From assembly GCA_001304015.1 (NCBI GenBank), contig LJUY01000001.1, positions 124,001 through 188,000 of the forward strand: a stretch of DNA of 64,000 nt. Direction: 5' to 3'. Below the pieces are notes generated by a model that worked only from the letters and a program-made list of their open reading frames with translations, ran no database searches and had not been told where the DNA came from. The stretch comes from a candidate division Zixibacteria bacterium SM23_81 (lineage in GTDB: Bacteria > SM23-81). Below, piece after piece: positions 2,945 to 31,050 of the stretch. The first letter of the stretch is position 1. Each line of letters begins with the position of its first letter. The translations under genes were made by a program, and so were the position numbers.

Positions 2945-3023
2945 AACACTTATCCTTTCTGGTCTAACTTATAAATAGATGGTTGTCCTTGCTAAGACTT
3001 CTGACTGCCAATTGTCCAGATAA
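2945..3023 (-). repeat. Shared lipoprotein leader, copy 1
   Basis: This stretch matches 14002-14081 closely over its whole length, including TTATCTGGACAATTGGC at its upstream end and the ribosome binding site region. Both copies begin abruptly at TTATCTGG; in copy 2 the preceding base is G, which would fit the G/TT crossover point of integron recombination. Confidence 0.7.
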
Positions 3024-3047
3024 TGCGCACTGAGAGGTGTTTTTTTC

Positions 3048-3239
3048 TCACAAGGAGTCAATGGGATTTCTTACTCCCCTGCCGCCCCGGTTTAGCACAT
3101 GAGTCCAGACCAGCACTGTTCGCACGTCTTCGTGGCTCGCCATCTCCTGTACGGTTCGGATGTCGTATTCGTCCTCAAGCAGATGGGTCACATAGGAGTA
3201 GGAGGAGCGAAATATGTGCCAACTGGCTCTTAGACCCAC
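3048..3239 (-). pseudogene. intI (fragment): C-terminal relic of an integron integrase (IntI)
   Basis: The frame encodes [15 protein letters not shown], then a degenerate SHEDVRT, then [14 protein letters not shown] and ends IDSL-stop. This is the hallmark C-terminus of integron-type tyrosine recombinases ([32 protein letters not shown]). Only about 60 residues remain of a roughly 320-residue enzyme. The conserved HxLRHSFAT box is decayed to [11 protein letters not shown] (the Arg kept, the second His lost), and the nucleophilic Tyr before THV is Trp. It cannot be active. It is co-directional with the neighbouring cassettes, unlike the divergent class 1 layout but as reported for some reverse-oriented chromosomal integrons. 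About 25 bp beyond its stop begins the shared lipoprotein leader. Confidence 0.8.
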
Positions 3240-5957: not shown

Positions 5958-6009
5958 GGTGTACCTCTTCAAATAGATTTAGTGCAAAGTTTTCTTAACC
6001 TACGTCTCC

Positions 6010-6038
6010 ATTTTACCATAACTGCTGTATCTTGTCAA
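6010..6038 (-). promoter_or_regulatory. Promoter of the secreted propeller gene
   Basis: Minus strand: TTGACA (6038-6033), 17-bp spacer, TAAAAT (6015-6010). The spacer and flanks resemble those of the promoter at 2154-2182. Confidence 0.75.
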
Positions 6039-6056
6039 GAAAAATCTCAATTATCA

Positions 6057-6308
6057 TCGCACTCTAAAAATCAAGACTATTCAAACAGGGTAAAGTCATA
6101 AAAACATCCTCCCCCACATCCTGGTACCCCTGCGGGGAGGGCAATTTTATGGTCAAACTGAATCCCAAAAAATCCGTGCTACGAATCTGCTATGGTTTTA
6201 TGTCCAAATATGACCATTTTTGTCCATTTATGTCCCTGGTGACAATCTCATTAAAGCCAAATAAAAAAGGGAGTTGCCTAATTTTCAATAACTTAGGCAA
6301 CCCCCTTT
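6057..6308 (-). repeat. Dispersed repeat unit B
   Basis: Has the same parts in the same order as unit A: hairpin (6305-6269, GGGGGTTGCCTAAG with complementary TTAGGCAACTCCC then a T-rich tract), 10-bp direct repeats (6237-6197), a CAGCAGGGGTACC-like GC block and the TTACCCTGTTTGAATAGT block, then promoter. Its upstream end abuts a truncated tRNA-Arg. Confidence 0.75.
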
Positions 6309-6312
6309 TAAG

Positions 6313-6354
6313 GGATTCGAAGTCCGACGCTCTATCCATCTGAACTACTGACCC
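6313..6354 (-). pseudogene. 5' half of a tRNA-Arg (UCG anticodon), cut in the anticodon stem
   Basis: From 6354 the minus strand reads an acceptor-like 5' strand (GGGTCAG), a D-arm (GTTCAGATGGATAGAGC) and the anticodon arm TCGGA-CTTCGAA-TCC with anticodon TCG. The remaining stem base, variable loop, T-arm and acceptor 3' strand are missing; the hairpin of repeat unit B begins a few bases later. It cannot give a functional tRNA. Confidence 0.7.
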
Positions 6355-6454: not shown

Positions 6455-6609
6455 CTAATCAAAATTTGCTTCCATTTTATGCCCAAATATGTCCCTTTTT
6501 GTCCATTTATGCCCCTCAATAGAATTTTGAGAACTCATAATAAAAAAGGGAGTTGCGCAAATCACAAAGACTTACACAACTCCCTTCTGGGCGATTAGGA
6601 ATCCCTTTC
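6455..6609 (-). repeat. Dispersed repeat unit C with tRNA anticodon-arm remnant
   Basis: Contains the terminator-like hairpin (6584-6548, GGGAGTTGTGTAAG type) and the 10-bp direct repeats (6515-6477), but no promoter block. Its upstream end, 6609-6593, reads GAAAGGGATTCCTAATC, the anticodon arm of tRNA-Arg (CCT) as in the longer remnant at 18389-18429. Confidence 0.65.
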
Positions 6610-7659: not shown

Positions 7660-7757
7660 GCCTAACGGTTGGGACATCAGTTGTGGCGAGTTGGAGCATG
7701 TTTTGACTTGTATTAAGACCTTTTTTAAACGCCGTCAACTGAATGCGCTTGTTATAC
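7660..7757 (-). other. attC: Integron attC site a
   Basis: 98 bp, in cassette orientation on the minus strand. It opens with GTATAAC (7757-7751, R''), followed by GCATTCAGTTGACGGCG (L''), a long non-conserved centre, a complementary CAACTGATG stretch (L') and closes with GTTAGGC (7666-7660), a perfect GTTRRRY R' box. It lies 20 bp after the stop of the HEAT-repeat gene. Confidence 0.85.
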
Positions 7758-7776
7758 GCTTGTGGTCATTCTTTAA

Positions 7777-8301
7777 TTATTTTTTTCTAGAGTTCTTTAT
7801 TGCCTTTATTGCTGATTGTATATGATAGATATCATCATCAGTAGAGATATAACCAGCAATAGATTTTGTTTGCACGTATTTGTATACTATACCTTGTTTC
7901 ACCAATTTATTCTTTACTTTTGCAAGTATTTTTTCTAAGACAGGTAGAGCTATTGGATCACCTATCGCCTTCAGAGTATTTATTGCGAGAGTAACGTACT
8001 TGCTATAACTATGAACGCCTCTAGATACTTTTGCACCTTCAACTATATTTATCAAACATTCAGTTGCTGGTTTGAGTAATGTTAGCAATTTTTCTTTGTC
8101 GATGTCTTCGCTCTCGTTCATGAGCACAATTATTCCTGTAGTAGCCTCCTCATAAACTTCCTTCCTATCATCCTTTAATGCCTTCGATAGGATTGGCACT
8201 GCTTGAATACCCAAGCCAGCTAACTCTAGAGCGGCTAAATATCTTTCATTAGCAGAGTTGCTTCTTAGCTTTCTCTCAAGCTCTATGATTTTTTTCGCCA
8301 T
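7777..8301 (-). CDS. Small HEAT-repeat protein (integron cassette gene)
   Basis: 174 residues; ATG 8301 follows AAAGGAGAAAAACA. Contains HEAT-like helical repeats (RYLAALELAGLGIQAVPILSKAL; KEVYEEATTGIIVLM; a later LKAIGDPIALPVLEKILAKV). There is no signal peptide, so it is probably cytoplasmic and a protein-binding scaffold. The gene is much more A+T-rich than its neighbours, as expected of a cassette of foreign origin. attC site a follows directly, attC site b lies upstream. Partner unknown. Confidence 0.75.
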   Translation of the reverse strand: MAKKIIELERKLRSNSANERYLAALELAGLGIQAVPILSKALKDDRKEVYEEATTGIIVLMNESEDIDKEKLLTLLKPATECLINIVEGAKVSRGVHSYSKYVTLAINTLKAIGDPIALPVLEKILAKVKNKLVKQGIVYKYVQTKSIAGYISTDDDIYHIQSAIKAIKNSRKK

Positions 8302-8676
8302 TGTTTTTCTCCTTTCGTTTTAATACCAAATTATTGTCTATTTATATTTTTGCTGGTATAAGAAAAAGATTGGGGGAGGACGTAAAAAATATTCTCTTAA
8401 GCTATATATATTGAAAAGTTATATAGATTTCCCAACAGATCTATGTCATAACACATCTCTATTGATCTCGTGCAAAAAAAACTGGTTATTTGAAATCTGC
8501 TTACTTTGTGCAAATTTTGAATTAACCTATAATATATTACTAGAAATGAGATTCATGTTTGTAACATTCTGTGAGCTTTTCTAAAAACCTTCTTCTGTAT
8601 ACTAGATCTTTTTTGAATTACTTTTAAGAAAATTCTAAATATTCAAATCTTCACTTTGAGTTATACTAAGAATTAC
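8302..8676. other. A+T-rich cassette leader without a recognisable gene
   Basis: 375 bp between attC b and the HEAT-repeat gene. It is strongly A+T-rich and contains poly-A/T stretches but no open frame of note. It may carry the promoter of the HEAT gene; I see no clear -35/-10 pair. Confidence 0.5.
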
Positions 8677-8776
8677 GTATAACGGCTGGGGCATCAGTTG
8701 CGGCGGGGCGGAGCTTGTTTTGACTTGATAAAAAACCTTGTTTTAAACCGCCGTCAACTGAATGCCCTTGATATTC
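8677..8776 (-). other. attC: Integron attC site b
   Basis: About 100 bp. Minus strand: degenerate R'' (GAATATC), GGGCATTCAGTTGACGGCGG (L''), centre with AAAACAAGGTTTTTTATC, CCGCCGCAACTGATGC (L') and GTTATAC (8683-8677, R'). Its L'' and L' arms are complementary and nearly the same as in sites a and d. It begins just after the stop of the 8778-9506 gene. Confidence 0.82.
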
Positions 8777-8777
8777 A

Positions 8778-9506
8778 TTAACCGCCTGCTCCGTGTCGCC
8801 TTAAGCTACACACGAATGCCTCCGCCACCCGAGCAGCAACTATCCCACTGATCAACGCTACGTGCTCCAAGTGAATGAACGGACCGGTTGAATCGAGGCC
8901 ACCTGTGTGATACAGGAACGCTACAGCAACCACCGATACGCCAGCGAGGTATACCAGACGACTAATACCCAAAGGGCTTGTAGGCCAAAGCAGCAGGAAA
9001 TGGACTACGTAGAATATCAAGACAACATGTAGTCCTCCAGGAACTGCCCAGTAAATTCTGTCGAGGCTTGTGAACACTGAACGCAGAGCGTAGGTTGGGG
9101 GAAGACAGGCCTCGCATATGTACGTATTGATAAGCGGACCTAATTGCAGTGCAAGATAGTGGTGGAAGATGTAGTATAGTGGCCATGTGAGATACGCAAT
9201 GGCCAAAGCCCATGCTGACCGGCGATAGAGCCCAATTGCGATGGCCATCCACAAGCAGGAAAATAGTATGATACGAAGAAGAGTACCGCTATCCGCGGTT
9301 AATCTGCTTGCGAAGAGCCAAACGTAATAAACAGTCCAGCCAAGATAGGAAAGGGCTGCTGCCAAGGGGGTACACCAGACATCTCTCGCTCGCGGAAGCC
9401 TATGTGGGCTTTGAGCTGGGGGCTGGGGAGTCTCCTTCGTGTCATTGACCACTGGCACTAGTGGTCGCGATTCAAACGGTGTATCAGCAGGCTTCACATC
9501 CTGCAT
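8778..9506 (-). CDS. Polytopic membrane protein (integron cassette gene)
   Basis: 242 residues; ATG 9506 is preceded by AGGAGG at eight bases. A proline-rich N-terminal tail of about 45 residues is followed by several hydrophobic segments (about 48-68, 75-95, 100-118, 152-175, 180-200 and 212-232), so roughly six membrane spans. No motif identifies a transporter or enzyme. Flanked by attC b (downstream) and attC c (upstream). Integral membrane protein of unknown role. Confidence 0.7.
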   Translation of the reverse strand: MQDVKPADTPFESRPLVPVVNDTKETPQPPAQSPHRLPRARDVWCTPLAAALSYLGWTVYYVWLFASRLTADSGTLLRIILFSCLWMAIAIGLYRRSAWALAIAYLTWPLYYIFHHYLALQLGPLINTYICEACLPPTYALRSVFTSLDRIYWAVPGGLHVVLIFYVVHFLLLWPTSPLGISRLVYLAGVSVVAVAFLYHTGGLDSTGPFIHLEHVALISGIVAARVAEAFVCSLRRHGAGG

Positions 9507-9799
9507 TGCTGAGCCTCCTATACTCTAGCTACAGAATCGTAGCGCAGCGGCTGTTAAAAAAAGGAAGCACTGCATCATTTAAGCTTGAACCTCGATATCC
9601 TAGCGACCACTGACGTGGATTCTGGCGACGAAGCCATTGATGACCTCAGCGAAATGATTATTGAGATCATTTGCTAGAAGCTCCAATTTAATAATACTGA
9701 TATATGTACTATGTTTCCTAACGCTTCGACCGCTATTAGACGGACATAAGGTTGACTGACTGTGCTGGGTGTTATTCGTCGCTAGCGATCCACACAAGC
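9507..9799. other. Cassette leader, no convincing gene
   Basis: 293 bp between attC c and the membrane-protein gene. A 65-codon minus-strand frame (9797-9600) opens two bases from attC c, but it has no hydrophobic core, known motif or good ribosome site, so I do not call it a gene. TCCTAAC at 9716-9722 resembles an R box, but no complementary L arms accompany it. Confidence 0.5.
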
Positions 9800-9898
9800 G
9801 CCTAACGGCAGGCGCATCAGTTGCGGCGGGGCGGACGGTGTCTTGACCTGAATGAATCCCTTCGTATGACCACTTTCAGCTGAATGACCTTGTGTGGG
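9800..9898 (-). other. attC: Integron attC site c
   Basis: About 99 bp. Minus strand: decayed R'' (CCACACA), AAGGTCATTCAGCTGAAAG (L'' side), a central stretch, CCGCCCCGCCGCAACTGATGC (L', one base longer than quoted limits avoided elsewhere) and GTTAGGC (9806-9800), a perfect R' box. The L' arm is the same as in site b; the L'' side has drifted. About 200 bp separate it from the stop of the 10099-11022 gene. Confidence 0.75.
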
Positions 9899-10098
9899 AC
9901 AGCAACACCTCACACCAACCAGTGAGAAACTAAGTCAGGCTGTGTAGTCTTGATAGAAACCAAAGTCTACTACCCCACCGGCTTGATGGTGAACTATTTT
10001 CTCTTGACTTAGAGGGCTTCATAAGGCTTAGGCGGCCAGGATCAATAGAATCACTAGAATCACTAGATCGCCATTGCCGTGCTTTTTGAAGCATTACT

Positions 10099-11022
10099 TC
10101 AATCTTTCTTGGTCTCGATCCACTTTGCATCTTTGAACACATAGTATGTGTCATCGCGCATTGCGCGAGCGCCCGTGCTAAACACCACACGGAATTGGTC
10201 CTTGTCCTTCGACAGAGACGTACAGAACCCCTTAAACTGAATCTCAGGGAATTTGCCCGTCTCTTTGATCCCAGCTAATTTCATTGGGTCAACCCAAACA
10301 TCCAGAAACTCGGGAACGAGCAGTTTCGTCTCCTTATCCACTTTCCCTCTGCATTCATTTCTTGGAAAGTGGAAGAAGGGATTCTCCAGCTTCTCCCTTA
10401 CAGGTATGCCATATGTGTCCGCAATTTGCTGTGCGTGCCGTTCTAGGTCCGCTCGCACCTCTGGTGCTGCATATAATCCACCGGTGCCTGCTGGAAGATA
10501 CTCGACGGCTAGGTTGTCTGATCTTTGCGCATTTGGACCTAAATATCCGGTCGTGCCAGAGTTGTAGACGCTAACCGCGAAAAGGAGATAGTCGTTGAGA
10601 AGCTGGTGGATATCGACAGGCTGCACGCTTGATGTTTTCGAGTCGATCCGTTGAGCGGTATCTCCAGTCGATGGTAGCCTCTTGAACGACTCCACCTCAG
10701 TGTGCCCTTCTAGGTACACAATCTCCACGAGGTCGCCTTTCTGGAATTCGTCAAAATTCTTAAGACGCGCTGCGAAATCTGCACTAGATATTGAAATCTC
10801 CAAGTATTCACTGACGACACTGAAATAATGGTACACGTCACAGATCTTGAGAGTATCTCCTCCGTCCAGCTTAACGACAATGTCCCCTACTTCAGGCGCT
10901 ATCGACTCAATAACTCCGGTAACCGTTTTGCGAGCCGCTCTGTCCTCGGCGATCGGAGTTGACGGTCTCAGGCAGACCATCGCACACGTCAAAAGAACGA
11001 GTAGCGTCGCTTTTGTTCTCAT
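10099..11022 (-). CDS. Secreted protein of unknown function (integron cassette gene)
   Basis: 307 residues; ATG 11022 follows GAGAGGAGGCCAGA. Signal peptide of about 25 residues (TKATLLVLLTCAMVCLRPS). Residues about 33-110 form a beta-rich segment (TVTGVIESIAPEVGDIVVKL; GDLVEIVYLEGHTEVESF) like small barrel domains that bind nothing specific. The rest includes an FPRNECRGKVDKETKLLVPEF stretch whose two halves I cannot match to a family, and a C-terminal strand ending DTYYVFKDAKWIETKKD. Probably periplasmic. It lies between attC d and attC c. Confidence 0.65.
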   Translation of the reverse strand: MRTKATLLVLLTCAMVCLRPSTPIAEDRAARKTVTGVIESIAPEVGDIVVKLDGGDTLKICDVYHYFSVVSEYLEISISSADFAARLKNFDEFQKGDLVEIVYLEGHTEVESFKRLPSTGDTAQRIDSKTSSVQPVDIHQLLNDYLLFAVSVYNSGTTGYLGPNAQRSDNLAVEYLPAGTGGLYAAPEVRADLERHAQQIADTYGIPVREKLENPFFHFPRNECRGKVDKETKLLVPEFLDVWVDPMKLAGIKETGKFPEIQFKGFCTSLSKDKDQFRVVFSTGARAMRDDTYYVFKDAKWIETKKD

Positions 11023-11088
11023 TCTGGCCTCCTCTCCCAGTGAGTTCAGTTCTCGATTGCGATTGTCGTGAATGGAGGTGCATCTGCC

Positions 11089-11185
11089 ACCTAACGGCTG
11101 GGCATCAGTTGAGGCGAGGTGGCGTTTGTATTGACCTGTAGTAAAACCTTGTTTTGATCGACGTCAACTGAATGCGCGGATTAGC
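11089..11185 (-). other. attC: Integron attC site d
   Basis: 97 bp. Minus strand: GCTAATC (11185-11179, decayed R''), GCGCATTCAGTTGACGTCG (L''), centre AAAACAAGGTTTTACTAC, CGCCTCAACTGATGCCC (L') and GTTAGGT (11095-11089), a perfect R' box. It starts 16 bp after the stop of the 11202-11951 gene. Confidence 0.85.
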
Positions 11186-11201
11186 TGGCCCAGCGCACTA
11201 T

Positions 11202-11951
11202 TCAGCGCTTTCCATACCAGCCATCAATCCTTCTCTCAAGCGAAACACCGTGAAGAAGCACCCTAGCTCCAGCATAGTGTGCAGTCAGGACATTCACGTA
11301 TTCGCCCTCAGTTTGGTCGCACCGTCCGTAGATCTGAGCTGAGTGAATAGCCTTGGTCGCAGTACCAAACCATCGCCGGCCGTCATCGAAGTAACTTGAC
11401 CCAAGCATCAGACACAGTCTGTGGCCCTTTGCTGCATCAAGGTGAATAAGTGTCAGGGATTGCCCAAAGTCCACCGCTTCGAATGAATTCTCAACAAAAC
11501 GGTCTCTTGGAGGATGGCTCTCGCAAAGGGCGGAGACGATAACATCACCTTCAGTGAGACATGGCCCATAGCCCACCACCGTGCTACACGAGGAGTCAGT
11601 GTAGATATAGTCCCAAGAGCCAAACCGCGCTTTCTTCTCGACGATTCCAACTTTGGACACAAAACCCCCCCCAGATACATTGATACTGGACTGCGCTGGA
11701 ATAGGTGTTCTACCGTTGAGAGTAAGAAATCCTGAATATTGTACCGATTCGTTTTGCGAGATCGAATGGCTCAATGTGTCGGATTGAGTTAAAGTAGACG
11801 CTATCTGGTCGTTTTCTCCCGTGCGCGGTGGACATTCCATCTTTATGAGACCGCCCTTTGCCTGTTCTTCCGATGGTCCGCTTCCGCAGCCAACGTTTGC
11901 GACCGACCACGCAGCCAGGAGTATGACCAAAATCATTTTTTTGACTAACAT
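11202..11951 (-). CDS. Lipoprotein of unknown function (integron cassette gene)
   Basis: 249 residues from ATG 11951; GGGGG sits eight bases upstream, whereas the ATG six bases earlier would be too close to it. Lipoprotein signal with lipobox SVANVGC (Cys about 22). The mature protein has a serine/threonine-rich stretch near 45-85, three further cysteines around CSTVVGYGPC, and a C-terminal segment with RRIDGWYGKR. No family recognised. Flanked by attC d and attC e; its two flanks and own orientation fit a one-gene cassette. Confidence 0.7.
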   Translation of the reverse strand: MLVKKMILVILLAAWSVANVGCGSGPSEEQAKGGLIKMECPPRTGENDQIASTLTQSDTLSHSISQNESVQYSGFLTLNGRTPIPAQSSINVSGGGFVSKVGIVEKKARFGSWDYIYTDSSCSTVVGYGPCLTEGDVIVSALCESHPPRDRFVENSFEAVDFGQSLTLIHLDAAKGHRLCLMLGSSYFDDGRRWFGTATKAIHSAQIYGRCDQTEGEYVNVLTAHYAGARVLLHGVSLERRIDGWYGKR

Positions 11952-11986
11952 TTGCATTACCCCCTTTTTCGATGCATATCTTCGCT

Positions 11987-12079
11987 AGCTAACGCTTAGC
12001 GCATCAGCTACGGTGGTGCTGTGTGTATTTTTACGCGTAAAATCTCTCCTTCGCCCTCAGCGGTCTGCATAGGCTTGGA
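11987..12079 (-). other. attC: Integron attC site e (degenerate)
   Basis: About 93 bp between the stop of the ankyrin gene and the lipoprotein gene. Minus strand ends with CCGTAGCTGATGCGC then TAAGC and GTTAGCT (11993-11987), an R'-like box with one mismatch. The other arm (TATGCAGACCGCTGAGG) is only partly complementary. Confidence 0.55.
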
Positions 12080-12087
12080 GAACGATG

Positions 12088-13029
12088 CTACATCCCTGCC
12101 CCAGCCTTCTTCAACATTTCGATAATGTCTGGATCTGTACTTAGCTTAAGGGCGTCGTTCCCGCTCTTGTCCTTTAGATTAACGTCAGCTCCCTTCTCAA
12201 GCAGTAATCTAACGACCGGGGCGTGTCCATGATTTGCAGCTAACATTAGGGGTGTGATGCTGTCTTTAATTGTTCGCGGATCAATGTAAGCTCCCTTCTT
12301 AAGCAGTAGTCTAACGACCTGGGGGTGCCCACGACTTGCAGCTAACATTAGAGGTGTGACGCCATCTTCATATGTACCCAGATTCACATCTGCTCCTTTG
12401 TCAAGAAGAGATTCGACAGTTTTAACGTAGCCACCTACCGTAGCACCGAACAGCGCCGTTGCACCTTCACTCTTGGTTTTAGCGTCGACGTTAGCGCCGA
12501 TGGCCAGCAAATAGCGAGTAATTTCGACGTACCCAAAATCTGACGCTTGGTGGAGGGGGGTTGAGTTATCCTCGTTGCCAAGGTTGACTCTGGCGCCCTT
12601 CTCAACAAGGTACTGCACGAACTCAAGCTGTCCATCGTAGGGGGAAGAATCACTCTCAGACACTAGTGGAGGCGGTGTCTCCGCTTTCGCCGTGGTTGAG
12701 AAAGGTTGCATTAGCATAGTAATAGTGCCGGCTCTACAGGCATACATCAGCGGCGTGGCTCCGGTTTTGCCTGGCGCGTTCACATCAGCCCCTTTGTCAA
12801 CGAGGTACTTGGCTATTTCGAAATGACCACTCCATATAGCCGTGTGCAATGGTGTCTTTTGATCTGTATCCTTCGCATCTACATCTACGCCAGTAGCTAT
12901 GAGCTGTTTTACCTTGTCTAAGTCACCAGCCTTTGCAGCTTCGTGGAGAGACAACCCACGTGCTGTACTAATAGAGATAACAGATATAGTGACCACTAGC
13001 AAGATACTGAGACTGAGGGTGTATTTCAT
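12088..13029 (-). CDS. Secreted ankyrin-repeat protein
   Basis: 313 residues from ATG 13029, which follows AAAGGAGGTGGCAAT; the longer frame lacks a site. Signal peptide (MKYTLSLSILLVVTISVIS). About seven ankyrin repeats follow, each with the TPLH/TPLM..A...GH...V..LL.KGADVN pattern (for example GQLEFVQYLVEKGARVN, GHPQVVRLLLKKGAYID). One repeat is interrupted by a Pro/Thr-rich insert near residues 100-135. Exported ankyrin proteins usually bind proteins in the periplasm or outside; no partner is seen. It is followed by attC e, so it may be a cassette gene. No clear attC was found upstream of it. Confidence 0.85.
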   Translation of the reverse strand: MKYTLSLSILLVVTISVISISTARGLSLHEAAKAGDLDKVKQLIATGVDVDAKDTDQKTPLHTAIWSGHFEIAKYLVDKGADVNAPGKTGATPLMYACRAGTITMLMQPFSTTAKAETPPPLVSESDSSPYDGQLEFVQYLVEKGARVNLGNEDNSTPLHQASDFGYVEITRYLLAIGANVDAKTKSEGATALFGATVGGYVKTVESLLDKGADVNLGTYEDGVTPLMLAASRGHPQVVRLLLKKGAYIDPRTIKDSITPLMLAANHGHAPVVRLLLEKGADVNLKDKSGNDALKLSTDPDIIEMLKKAGAGM

Positions 13030-13164: not shown

Positions 13165-14001
13165 TCAATCCTGCTTGCTAATACTTTCCAAGGCTTTGGT
13201 CGCTTCCTGACTTATGTCTTCGTCTGTATCCTTAGCACCCTCGCGTAATGCTATCACGGCAGGATTTCCGATTTCACCGAGGGCCTCCCACAGGTTACCG
13301 GCTTGGTGAAAGCGCACGGGTGTCTCACTCCCAAACATGCTGATCCAGGAACTCGTGTATGGATTCTTAGGAAGCAACTGTTCATTAATTAAAGTTTTGA
13401 TGATTCTTTCCGTAGCAATGCCATTCTTGGCAAATTCCTTAAGAAGATGAGCGATTCCCATGTCACATACTCTGGACACGCCTTGCCAGTCGGAACCCCC
13501 GAAATTCAGACCACCTTCAAAGGCAAACGCAGGCACTACTTCTTTTCCATCGGCTAACAATTTTCCATCAAGCTTTAGAACGGGCACGGAAAGTACTATT
13601 GCGCCGCTGGTAACTTCTATCGATGTTCTCGGGTCAGTAAGAATCTTCCTTTCGAGTCCAAATCGAAGCGACATGTTCACGCTCAATGCATACTCCCGAG
13701 CGTCGGCTGATGGTGGAAATCCCACCTGCCTCAGCAACGATGCAAGCCTATCGCGGGTATAAGACTCTATTTTTGCATTGGTTACCGTGCTGTCATTTTG
13801 TGCAATCTTCAGAAGTGTCTCGTCGGCAGGCCGATTGGCGAGAGAAACGGTGATAGCGATATTCTTTGTGCGTGAAACTGCTGATTCCTCTTGAATTGCC
13901 GATTCCTCTTGAACTGATGAGTCATTTTGCTTACTGCATCCAACCAAGATCAAAACCGCGATGACCATTAGGACGGGGATAGTGATTCTACACCTTTTCA
14001 T
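13165..14001 (-). CDS. Lipoprotein with a C-terminal HEAT-like repeat
   Basis: 278 residues; ATG 14001 follows AAAGGAGACATCACT. Lipobox LILVGC (Cys about 22), then two direct repeats of EESAIQ/EESAVS. The middle contains beta-strand-rich sequence with two lipoprotein-type GG segments (FEGGLNFGGSDWQG), and the last 45 residues form a HEAT-like helix pair (LWEALGEIGNPAVIALREGAKDTDE...). No family recognised. The 80-bp leader is shared with the small lipoprotein gene at 2603-2944, and the gene has its own promoter at 14114-14142. Confidence 0.7.
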   Translation of the reverse strand: MKRCRITIPVLMVIAVLILVGCSKQNDSSVQEESAIQEESAVSRTKNIAITVSLANRPADETLLKIAQNDSTVTNAKIESYTRDRLASLLRQVGFPPSADAREYALSVNMSLRFGLERKILTDPRTSIEVTSGAIVLSVPVLKLDGKLLADGKEVVPAFAFEGGLNFGGSDWQGVSRVCDMGIAHLLKEFAKNGIATERIIKTLINEQLLPKNPYTSSWISMFGSETPVRFHQAGNLWEALGEIGNPAVIALREGAKDTDEDISQEATKALESISKQD

Positions 14002-14081
14002 AGTGATGTCTCCTTTCTGTCGAGCTTATAACTAGATGGTTTTCTTCGCTAAAACTTCTGACTGCCAATTGTCCAGATAAC
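14002..14081 (-). repeat. Shared lipoprotein leader, copy 2
   Basis: Near-identical to 2945-3023. Immediately upstream on the minus strand comes GCATAACAATTTGCGTG then TTATCTGG, so the shared part starts exactly after a G that precedes TT. This fits a cassette junction, though no full attC stands here. Confidence 0.7.
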
Positions 14082-14113
14082 ACGCAAATTGTTATGCGTT
14101 AATTTTCAAATCC

Positions 14114-14142
14114 ATTTTGACATAAGCGCTCTTTCATGTCAA
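14114..14142 (-). promoter_or_regulatory. Promoter of the 13165-14001 lipoprotein gene
   Basis: Minus strand: TTGACA (14142-14137), 17-bp spacer, CAAAAT (14119-14114). The spacer contains GCTTATG as in the promoter at 2154-2182. Confidence 0.65.
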
Positions 14143-14159
14143 GATAAATCTGAATTTTG

Positions 14160-14250
14160 CACCCCCAACTGTTAAAACAATCCAGACTATGCAAAGAGAG
14201 CATGATTTAAAAAAGCATTCCCCCGCTTAGTATCCTTGCCAGGGAGTTAA
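14160..14250 (-). repeat. Diverged partial copy of the promoter-upstream repeat
   Basis: Shows a decayed form of the block TTTGCATAGTCTGGATTGTT and a GC-rich CCTGGCAAGG stretch at the positions where units A and B have their blocks. No 10-bp repeats or hairpin. The rest of 14143-14334 holds nothing else I recognise. Confidence 0.45.
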
Positions 14251-15120: not shown

Positions 15121-15222
15121 ATCGCGCCTCCTGAAAGATGGCGAATTAACAAGGAAAAGAAAAGTGACTGCATGATCCTTTACCTACTTATGATTATAAA
15201 TACATGCTTAATTTTCAAAATC

Positions 15223-15251
15223 ATCTTATCATAACTGCTATTCTTTGTCAA
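15223..15251 (-). promoter_or_regulatory. Promoter of the 14335-15120 gene
   Basis: Minus strand: TTGACA (15251-15246), 17-bp spacer with GCAGTTATGA, TAAGAT (15228-15223). Same family as the promoters at 2154 and 6010. Confidence 0.7.
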
Positions 15252-15593
15252 GGATAATCTGAATTAACATCCAAATTTCGATATCTCACTTATCTTCGTT
15301 TCGTTCGCTCCTCTTTCCCATTACATCAGTCGATGAAAGAAGTCATTAGTTCCCGAAAGTTTTCAATGAGATGTTTTTATAGGTATAAAAAAGCCCACGT
15401 CCGAAATAGGATCTTGGACCTCAAACGCGCTGATCTGCATTACGAGCTTTTGTTAAGAACCTCAATAAAAACGAACAATTGACCCTCTGCTCAATTTTGT
15501 ATTTGATGAGGACCTTCTCTCATACATGCAATAGATACAAAAAAAACCTCACTCACTCGCAGCGAGGGTTGATGAGTGCCTTTGATACGACCT

Positions 15594-18386: not shown

Positions 18387-18388
18387 AC

Positions 18389-18429
18389 GATTAGGAATCC
18401 CTTGCTCTATCCGCCTGAGCTACGGGGGC
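18389..18429 (-). pseudogene. 5' half of a tRNA-Arg (CCU anticodon), cut in the anticodon stem
   Basis: From 18429 the minus strand reads acceptor strand GCCCCCG, TA, D-arm GCTCAGGCGGATAGAGC, A, and anticodon arm AGGGA-TTCCTAA-TC with anticodon CCT. Pairing then fails (expected TCCCT, found TCGTC), and repeat unit E begins. The 3' half is absent. The well-conserved 41 nt suggest a recent break. Confidence 0.8.
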
Positions 18430-22268: not shown

Positions 22269-22340
22269 TTTTAAGTTGTAGAACATTGTCAGGTGGCGTG
22301 GATGTTATGCTTTATCCAAATTGAGAGATGAACTGCCTCT

Positions 22341-22369
22341 ATTTTACCAAAGATGTTACCTCTTGTCAA
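22341..22369 (-). promoter_or_regulatory. Promoter of the DUF4185 gene
   Basis: Minus strand: TTGACA (22369-22364), 17-bp spacer, TAAAAT (22346-22341). The rest of 22370-22550 holds nothing I recognise. Confidence 0.7.
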
Positions 22370-22550
22370 GAATAATTCAAATGGAGCCCCTTCAGTTCAA
22401 ATAATAAAACCGAATTGATCCAAGAGCGCATAAGGATGCGTATGAATGCTTCTGGTTTACCGCACAGGGTCTGGTCTGAAGGCAGCACGATCCTCTTTCG
22501 GAGCCAGCATTGGAAAATCATAAGAAATCATAGAAATCATAAAATAAGAG

Positions 22551-30048: not shown

Positions 30049-31050
30049 CTACCACCAGATCTCAGCCTTGGCCACTCGATTCATGAGATCGTTGACAGCC
30101 TGGCGAGGATTTTTATCTTCAAACAGCACCAGATATACCTGTTCGGTTATGGGCATTTCGACTTTTTTCACATTGGCCAATGACCGGGCGGAAACGGTGG
30201 TGTTGACCCCCTCAGCGACCATCTCCATAGAGTCCAATACCTGCTTCAATTTCATACCCCTTCCCGCCTGTTCTCCCACATATCGATTGCGGCTATGTTT
30301 GCTCACGCAGGTAGTGATCAAATCACCCATTCCGGAAAGGCCGGCAAAAGTCTGAGCGCGGGCGCCCATAGCAATACCCAGACGACTGATCTCGGCCAAT
30401 CCTCTAGTGAGCAAAGCCCCTTTAGTATTGTCTCCATAATTCAAACCATCGCAGATTCCGGCGGCAATGGCGATGACATTTTTGAGCGAGCCAGCGAGCT
30501 CAGTGCCGATGAGGTCGTCGTTGGTGTATACTCGAAAATAGGAGGTCATAAAGGTCATCTGAATCTGAAGATTCATGTTTTCATCGGGAGAGGCAACCAC
30601 GACGGCCGTGGGGATGCCTCTGCTTACTTCTTCGGCGTGACTTGGTCCAGAAAGTGTGGCAATTCTGATACCTCGGGGCAATTCCTCTTGGAGTACCTGC
30701 GACATCCTTTTTAATGTCCTTCTCTCTAATCCCTTGGCCACATTCACCGAGATTATCTGGTCCGTGAGATGTGGGGCCGCCAACTTTGCTACATTCCTCA
30801 TGGTGTGTGATGGCAGGGCAAAGACGATGATACTGACATCCTCTAGGGCCTTACATATATCATCAGTGATGTCGATCTCTCTGGGCACGGCCACTCCTGG
30901 AAGAAAAAGAACGTTTTCGCGGGTCCGTTGAAGTTCATGAGCCCTTTCGCCGAAAAACTCCCACAGGGATACTGTATGGCCGTTACCATGCAGAAGTATG
31001 GCCAAAGCGGTGCCCCAGCCACCAGCCCCTAAAACGGCGATTTTCCTCAT
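30049..31050 (-). CDS. gpsA: Glycerol-3-phosphate dehydrogenase [NAD(P)+]
   Basis: 333 residues. Makes sn-glycerol 3-phosphate from dihydroxyacetone phosphate for phospholipid synthesis. Dinucleotide fold GAGGWGTALAILLHGNGH near 8, SGPSHAEEVSRGIPTA near 140, and the catalytic lysine in GSLKNVIAIAAGI near 188, plus GLSGMGDLITTC near 233. The start overlaps the stop of plsY by four bases, matching its shared pathway. Confidence 0.95.
   Translation of the reverse strand: MRKIAVLGAGGWGTALAILLHGNGHTVSLWEFFGERAHELQRTRENVLFLPGVAVPREIDITDDICKALEDVSIIVFALPSHTMRNVAKLAAPHLTDQIISVNVAKGLERRTLKRMSQVLQEELPRGIRIATLSGPSHAEEVSRGIPTAVVVASPDENMNLQIQMTFMTSYFRVYTNDDLIGTELAGSLKNVIAIAAGICDGLNYGDNTKGALLTRGLAEISRLGIAMGARAQTFAGLSGMGDLITTCVSKHSRNRYVGEQAGRGMKLKQVLDSMEMVAEGVNTTVSARSLANVKKVEMPITEQVYLVLFEDKNPRQAVNDLMNRVAKAEIWW

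Follow-up and report, generated by a model that had tools for sequence, protein, structure and literature searches.

A very probable remnant of a chromosomal integron in the uncultured bacterium SM23_81 of candidate division Zixibacteria

Genes and attC sites at the locus

The window, meaning the whole stretch of 64,000 nucleotides analysed, lies on contig C26 (205 kb) and encodes PNPase, MutS and ProS, which places the array described here on the chromosome. The MutS protein is 76% identical to that of a genome of the same family and 59% identical both to those of other phylum members and to that of a KSB1 MAG. The array consists of five elements (a-e) of 93-100 nt on the minus strand, each with one co-oriented gene ahead of it (Table 1), and comprises four strong sites and one weak one. 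The preliminary description of this DNA reported five minus-strand elements of about 90-100 bp following gene stops, and their coordinates, orientation, length and R' boxes are as it gave them. The elements begin 19, 1, 200, 15 and 8 nt after the stop codon and are followed by the next start codon at distances of 29-375 nt, with 0.9-1.3 kb between neighbouring sites.

Table 1. Cassette genes, attC sites, integrase remnant and attI-like blocks in the window
Feature	Position	Strand	Characteristics
attI-like block W1	2962..3029	-	directly 3' of integrase pseudogene; ends AAG^TTAGAC
Integron-integrase pseudogene	3051..3239	-	last 63 codons; Tyr -> Trp; two-codon insertion
attC a	7660..7757	-	R'' GTATAAC, R' GTTAGGC; R2 78.4 bits
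HEAT-repeat protein, 174 aa	7777..8301	-	Pfam HEAT_2 9.3e-8
attC b	8677..8776	-	R'' GAATATC, R' GTTATAC; R2 79.4 bits
Integral membrane protein, 242 aa, orphan	8778..9506	-	hydrophobic segments
attC c	9800..9898	-	degenerate R'' CCCACAC, R' GTTAGGC; R2 48.5 bits
Probable secreted protein, 307 aa, orphan	10099..11022	-	signal-peptide-like N terminus by reading
attC d	11089..11186	-	R'' AGCTAAT, R' GTTAGGT; R2 60.9 bits
Lipoprotein, 251 aa, no family	11202..11957	-	lipobox VGC by reading
attC e, degraded	11987..12079	-	R'/L' half only, R' GTTAGCT; R2 25.0 bits
Secreted ankyrin-repeat protein, first recognisable cassette	12088..13029 (ORF open to 13104)	-	Pfam Ank_2 1.6e-72
Lipoprotein gene between W2 and array	13165..14001	-	
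attI-like block W2	14019..14086	-	upstream of array; core decayed (GCTCGAC); 87% identical to W1

The cassette genes that were tested are orphans. The integral membrane protein has no Pfam or NCBIfam match, and neither it nor the probable secreted protein has a relative in 385 other genomes. The HEAT-repeat cassette is of foreign composition, with a GC content of 31.9% as against about 50%. Matches of the ankyrin protein to defence and effector models were rejected as functional evidence, being matches to the repeats only.

Canonical attC boxes form the inverted ends of the site, with R' of the form GTTRRRY and R'' of the form RYYYAAC. The R' box is good in all five sites, that of b departing from the consensus at one position, and R'' is nearly canonical in a and d and degenerate in b, c and e. 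Sites a-d are homologous from end to end, central part included, with a mean identity of about 71%, and pairwise identity among the attC sites of the array is 65-78%; for site e, homology to the others is confined to the R' half. The complementary arms noted in the preliminary description are present as the exact GCATTCAGTTGACG arm in a, b and d, with GTCATTCAGCTGAA as the arm of site c, but the sites are not all complete, as e is a half-site and the R'' boxes of b and c are non-canonical. The expected extrahelical base, unpaired in the R''-side arm of the hairpin, is carried by a-d and not clearly by e. Folding of the bottom strand, proposed as a check, sets b apart from its shuffles (z = -4.0), with d at z = -1.5 and a, c and e near 0. 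Single-strand folding energy alone was accordingly rejected as a site discriminator, separating only b from shuffles. In addition, the R''-side arm of c together with the flank upstream of it, a stretch of 133 nt (9876-10008), shares 80% identity with positions 2088-2220 of contig C163 in the same-family genome G001, which flank an attC site there; the upstream genes differ from those at site c.

Covariance models and the cassette insertion signature

A covariance model built from sites a-d (R1) identified further sites in the same genome (C26:68, 1276 and 2080; C57:1768; C1:828; C28:7025) and also in other genomes. A second model, R2, was built solely from 12 attC sites outside the window. 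In the window it matches exactly a-e, with scores of 79.4 to 25.0 bits (E = 1e-22 to 5e-5 in 88 kb), and nothing else up to E = 5; the weakest match, site e, has E values of 5e-5 in 88 kb and 0.0018 in the whole genome. The attC reading of the preliminary description is supported, as R2 leaves none of the five sites, let alone three or more, unmatched. Equally good matches are absent from the rest of the window, and the other attC matches examined in the genome sit between genes, near contig ends. As R1 had led to the 12 sites of R2, the choice of sites makes the two models only partly independent of each other. Covariation and the cassette signature, on the other hand, are independent of how sites were chosen for the models. 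Among the 12 outside sites, 27 cells of the hairpin are changed on both sides versus 10.3 in shuffles, and 83% are paired versus 29-45% when slid.

Scans of unrelated control genomes, in which the best 150 candidates per genome were scored, gave no match at E <= 0.1 in any of eight genomes with R1 or any of five with R2. R2 also misses the attC sites of an E. coli class 1 integron, and is therefore specific to one attC group rather than to all, so that the tie to classical attC sites rests on layout and signature. No site was found with R1 near the intact integrases of genomes G028 and G054, and exact-pattern scans of viral and genome contigs for the attC type of the array found nothing. An Rfam search returned tRNAs only, the array has no match in a plasmid collection, and attC b has none in E. 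coli genomes.

Insertion of a circular cassette brings in the TTRRRY that stands after the G, and the R'' of a site should consequently complement the R' of the junction upstream, at the other end of the same cassette. This complementarity is complete at a (7/7, to the R' of b) and nearly so at d (6/7, to the R' of e), and amounts to 4/7 each at b and c, so that two of the four testable window sites carry the signature. Three other arrays show 7/7 complementarity, and over five arrays (window, C26, C28, G001 and G004) the match exceeds permutation with p = 0.0013. In the class 1 integron array of E. coli, used as a control, the signature is present at 19/20 variable bases.

Other arrays and repeats

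Further attC arrays are found on other contigs of the genome. A second array on C26 lies 130 kb away at the start of the contig (68-2173) and runs the opposite way; its cassettes include RusA-like and AHJR-like nucleases. The array of the same-family genome G001 includes MazE-like/PIN toxin-antitoxin cassettes. Long attC sites of about 145-153 nt occur at C28 7025-7177 of this genome and at C163 2198-2347 and 3091-3235 of G001; their central sequence is common to the two genera and marks a second attC group in the family.

The window also holds repeats of other kinds. A promoter-like minus-strand repeat (TTGACA ... TATGATAAAATGG) is present at 2152-2214, 6008-6070, 14112-14174, 15221-15283 and 22339-22401, in front of several genes whose secreted products have signal peptides that resemble each other. 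Another repeat, 142 nt long and containing hairpins like those of terminators, occurs at 2327-2468, 6184-6325 and 6463-6604. It is adjoined by a tRNA-like fragment (6313-6354), with a similar one at 18388-18429, and these are perhaps scars of tRNA-targeting elements. Tandem 51-nt repeats at 256-1094 are part of a longer duplicated segment and probably fall within the gene of a secreted protein with repeats.

Integrase remnants

The integrase pseudogene in the window has lost about 80% of the gene from the 5' end as well as the catalytic tyrosine, and retains the HxxR motif, the later His and the typical tail. It scores 63.7 bits with the integron-integrase model TIGR02249 versus 36 for the best general Xer-type model, and is also matched by tblastn to intact IntI. 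A second remnant on contig C19 (about 30580-30770) keeps the tyrosine and is 5'-truncated and frameshifted. The two start from nearly the same residue, have a DNA identity of 75%, and are both best fitted by the integron-integrase model. Beyond these remnants the genome yields no integron-integrase-like match apart from Xer and phage-type recombinases, and no match anywhere in it exceeds the TIGR02249 cut-off. With the pseudogene and the attI-like blocks at 2962-3029 and 14019-14086, the earlier characterisation of the array as decayed and without an active integrase is no longer an assumption.

Neither this genome nor three phylum mates yielded an intact intI. As the draft of this genome is 92.6% complete, an intact integrase could sit in the missing part and serve the cassettes in trans, in which case the array would not be dead. 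In favour of this, the majority of the remaining attC sites are found at the ends of contigs, where an assembly interrupted by an array would leave them, and in the phylum mate G003 long integrase fragments also sit at the ends of contigs. A living array is nevertheless unlikely, given that none of the four phylum genomes yielded an intact integrase, that the integrase fragments in this genome have 5' truncations or frameshifts in the interior of contigs, and that the degradation of e, b and c suggests long inactivity.

attI-like blocks and the ancestral layout

The attI-like block is about 65-110 nt long and has five copies in the genome (W1, W2, C71:4852, C43:18467 and the end of C19). Complete copies read ...TTATAAG and then diverge into TTAGAC, CTCGAC, TTAGGT or TTAGCC. 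In G003, about 190 conserved nt come after the integrase 3' ends on contigs C201 and C75 and stop at AG^TTA; the two are 87% identical over the whole 351-nt match and continue as TTAGCT or TTATAC past the core. Judged from sequence, this is how an attI site with different first cassettes should look. Since the blocks behind the G003 integrase 3' ends stop precisely at the G^TT core, the ancestral order would have been integrase, attI and cassettes, all read in one direction. An integrase 3' end followed by the block is also seen at 3239-2962 in the window and on C19.

Block W2 has the right orientation for the head of the array, with the gene at 13165-14001 intervening. As its core is decayed and R2 recognises no attC behind that gene, we infer the link between W2 and the array from position. 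The integrase remnant at 3051-3239 was considered as the array's own head and dropped, as it sits 3' of the array and W2 makes a better head; at 4.4 kb from site a on that side, it need not have belonged to the array. This non-canonical position, together with the several dispersed attC groups in the genome, would fit an array that never had its own integrase and arose when an integrase encoded elsewhere placed cassettes off target, in a secondary site. Such insertion is one of the listed origins (PMC8618304) of CALINs, clusters of attC sites lacking an integron-integrase in the IntegronFinder definition (PMC9024848). An origin of this kind seems improbable here, since the attI-like block W2, correctly oriented, is found on the upstream side of the array.

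Copies of the block number five in this genome, four in G003 and two in G002, and their left ends differ, several lying near G^TT. It is conceivable, if quite doubtful, that the attI block itself was copied about, alone or together with an integrase 3' end, perhaps when the integrase acted on a pair of G^TT cores. In that case genomes would offer many prepared docking sites for cassettes.

Discussion

The features assembled here are very probably what is left of a chromosomal integron in this uncultured organism. Ordinary palindromic intergenic repeats or terminators would likewise follow stop codons and resemble each other, but a chance likeness to attC is extremely improbable in view of the two R boxes with one conserved unpaired base, the hairpin covariation, the R''/R' cassette signature, and the integrase remnants and attI-like blocks in the same genome.

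In the proposed history of the integron, its integrase would once have put circular cassettes in at attI; the enzyme would have recognised the bottom strand of attC in its folded form (the plus strand of the window), with the cut falling between G and TT. The gene for the integrase, which was read toward attI in the same direction as the cassettes, would then have been lost from its 5' end inward, leaving the cassettes immobile. The array is likely immobile in cis. Cassettes with an intact attC could still move by means of an integrase supplied in trans, and mobilisation of this array in trans is possible, as has been put forward for CALINs (PMC9668308).

An integron is a known kind of element, and the limited literature search made here found no earlier report for this lineage, nor any relevant paper on integrons in KSB1. 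The data add an uncultured phylum close to KSB1 to those with integrons, which here appear to be dead by now and have the reversed layout known from Treponema. As four related genomes stand at different stages of loss, the decay of a chromosomal integron can be followed, its course being loss of the integrase from the 5' end with attI and attC kept.

Among known systems, a degraded chromosomal integron of this kind is a CALIN by the usual definition, with traces of integrase and attI still readable: at least two attC sites lie less than 4 kb apart, the spacing applied to such clusters (PMC9668308), and no integron integrase gene adjoins them. An intact intI with catalytic residues, the mark of a complete integron, is missing. 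The five attC sites at 0.9-1.3 kb with co-oriented genes and no adjoining intact integrase are typical of CALINs, whereas the integrase pseudogene and attI-like blocks recognisable nearby set this one apart and allow its history to be read. Vibrio-type sedentary chromosomal integrons resemble it in having attC sites of similar sequence within one array and toxin-antitoxin cassettes, found here in G001, but differ in that only small fragments and no functional integrase are found in the present case. The chromosomal integrons of Treponema, in which integrase and cassettes are read in one direction and of which that of T. phagedenis has decayed (PMC3607928), are alike in layout: here too the integrase gene is read toward attI and the cassettes, as in the reverse-oriented type, and attC sites outlast the integrase. 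The present integron differs from those of Treponema in belonging to another phylum, in having several attI-like blocks per genome, and in that the 3' ends of the integrase gene remain.
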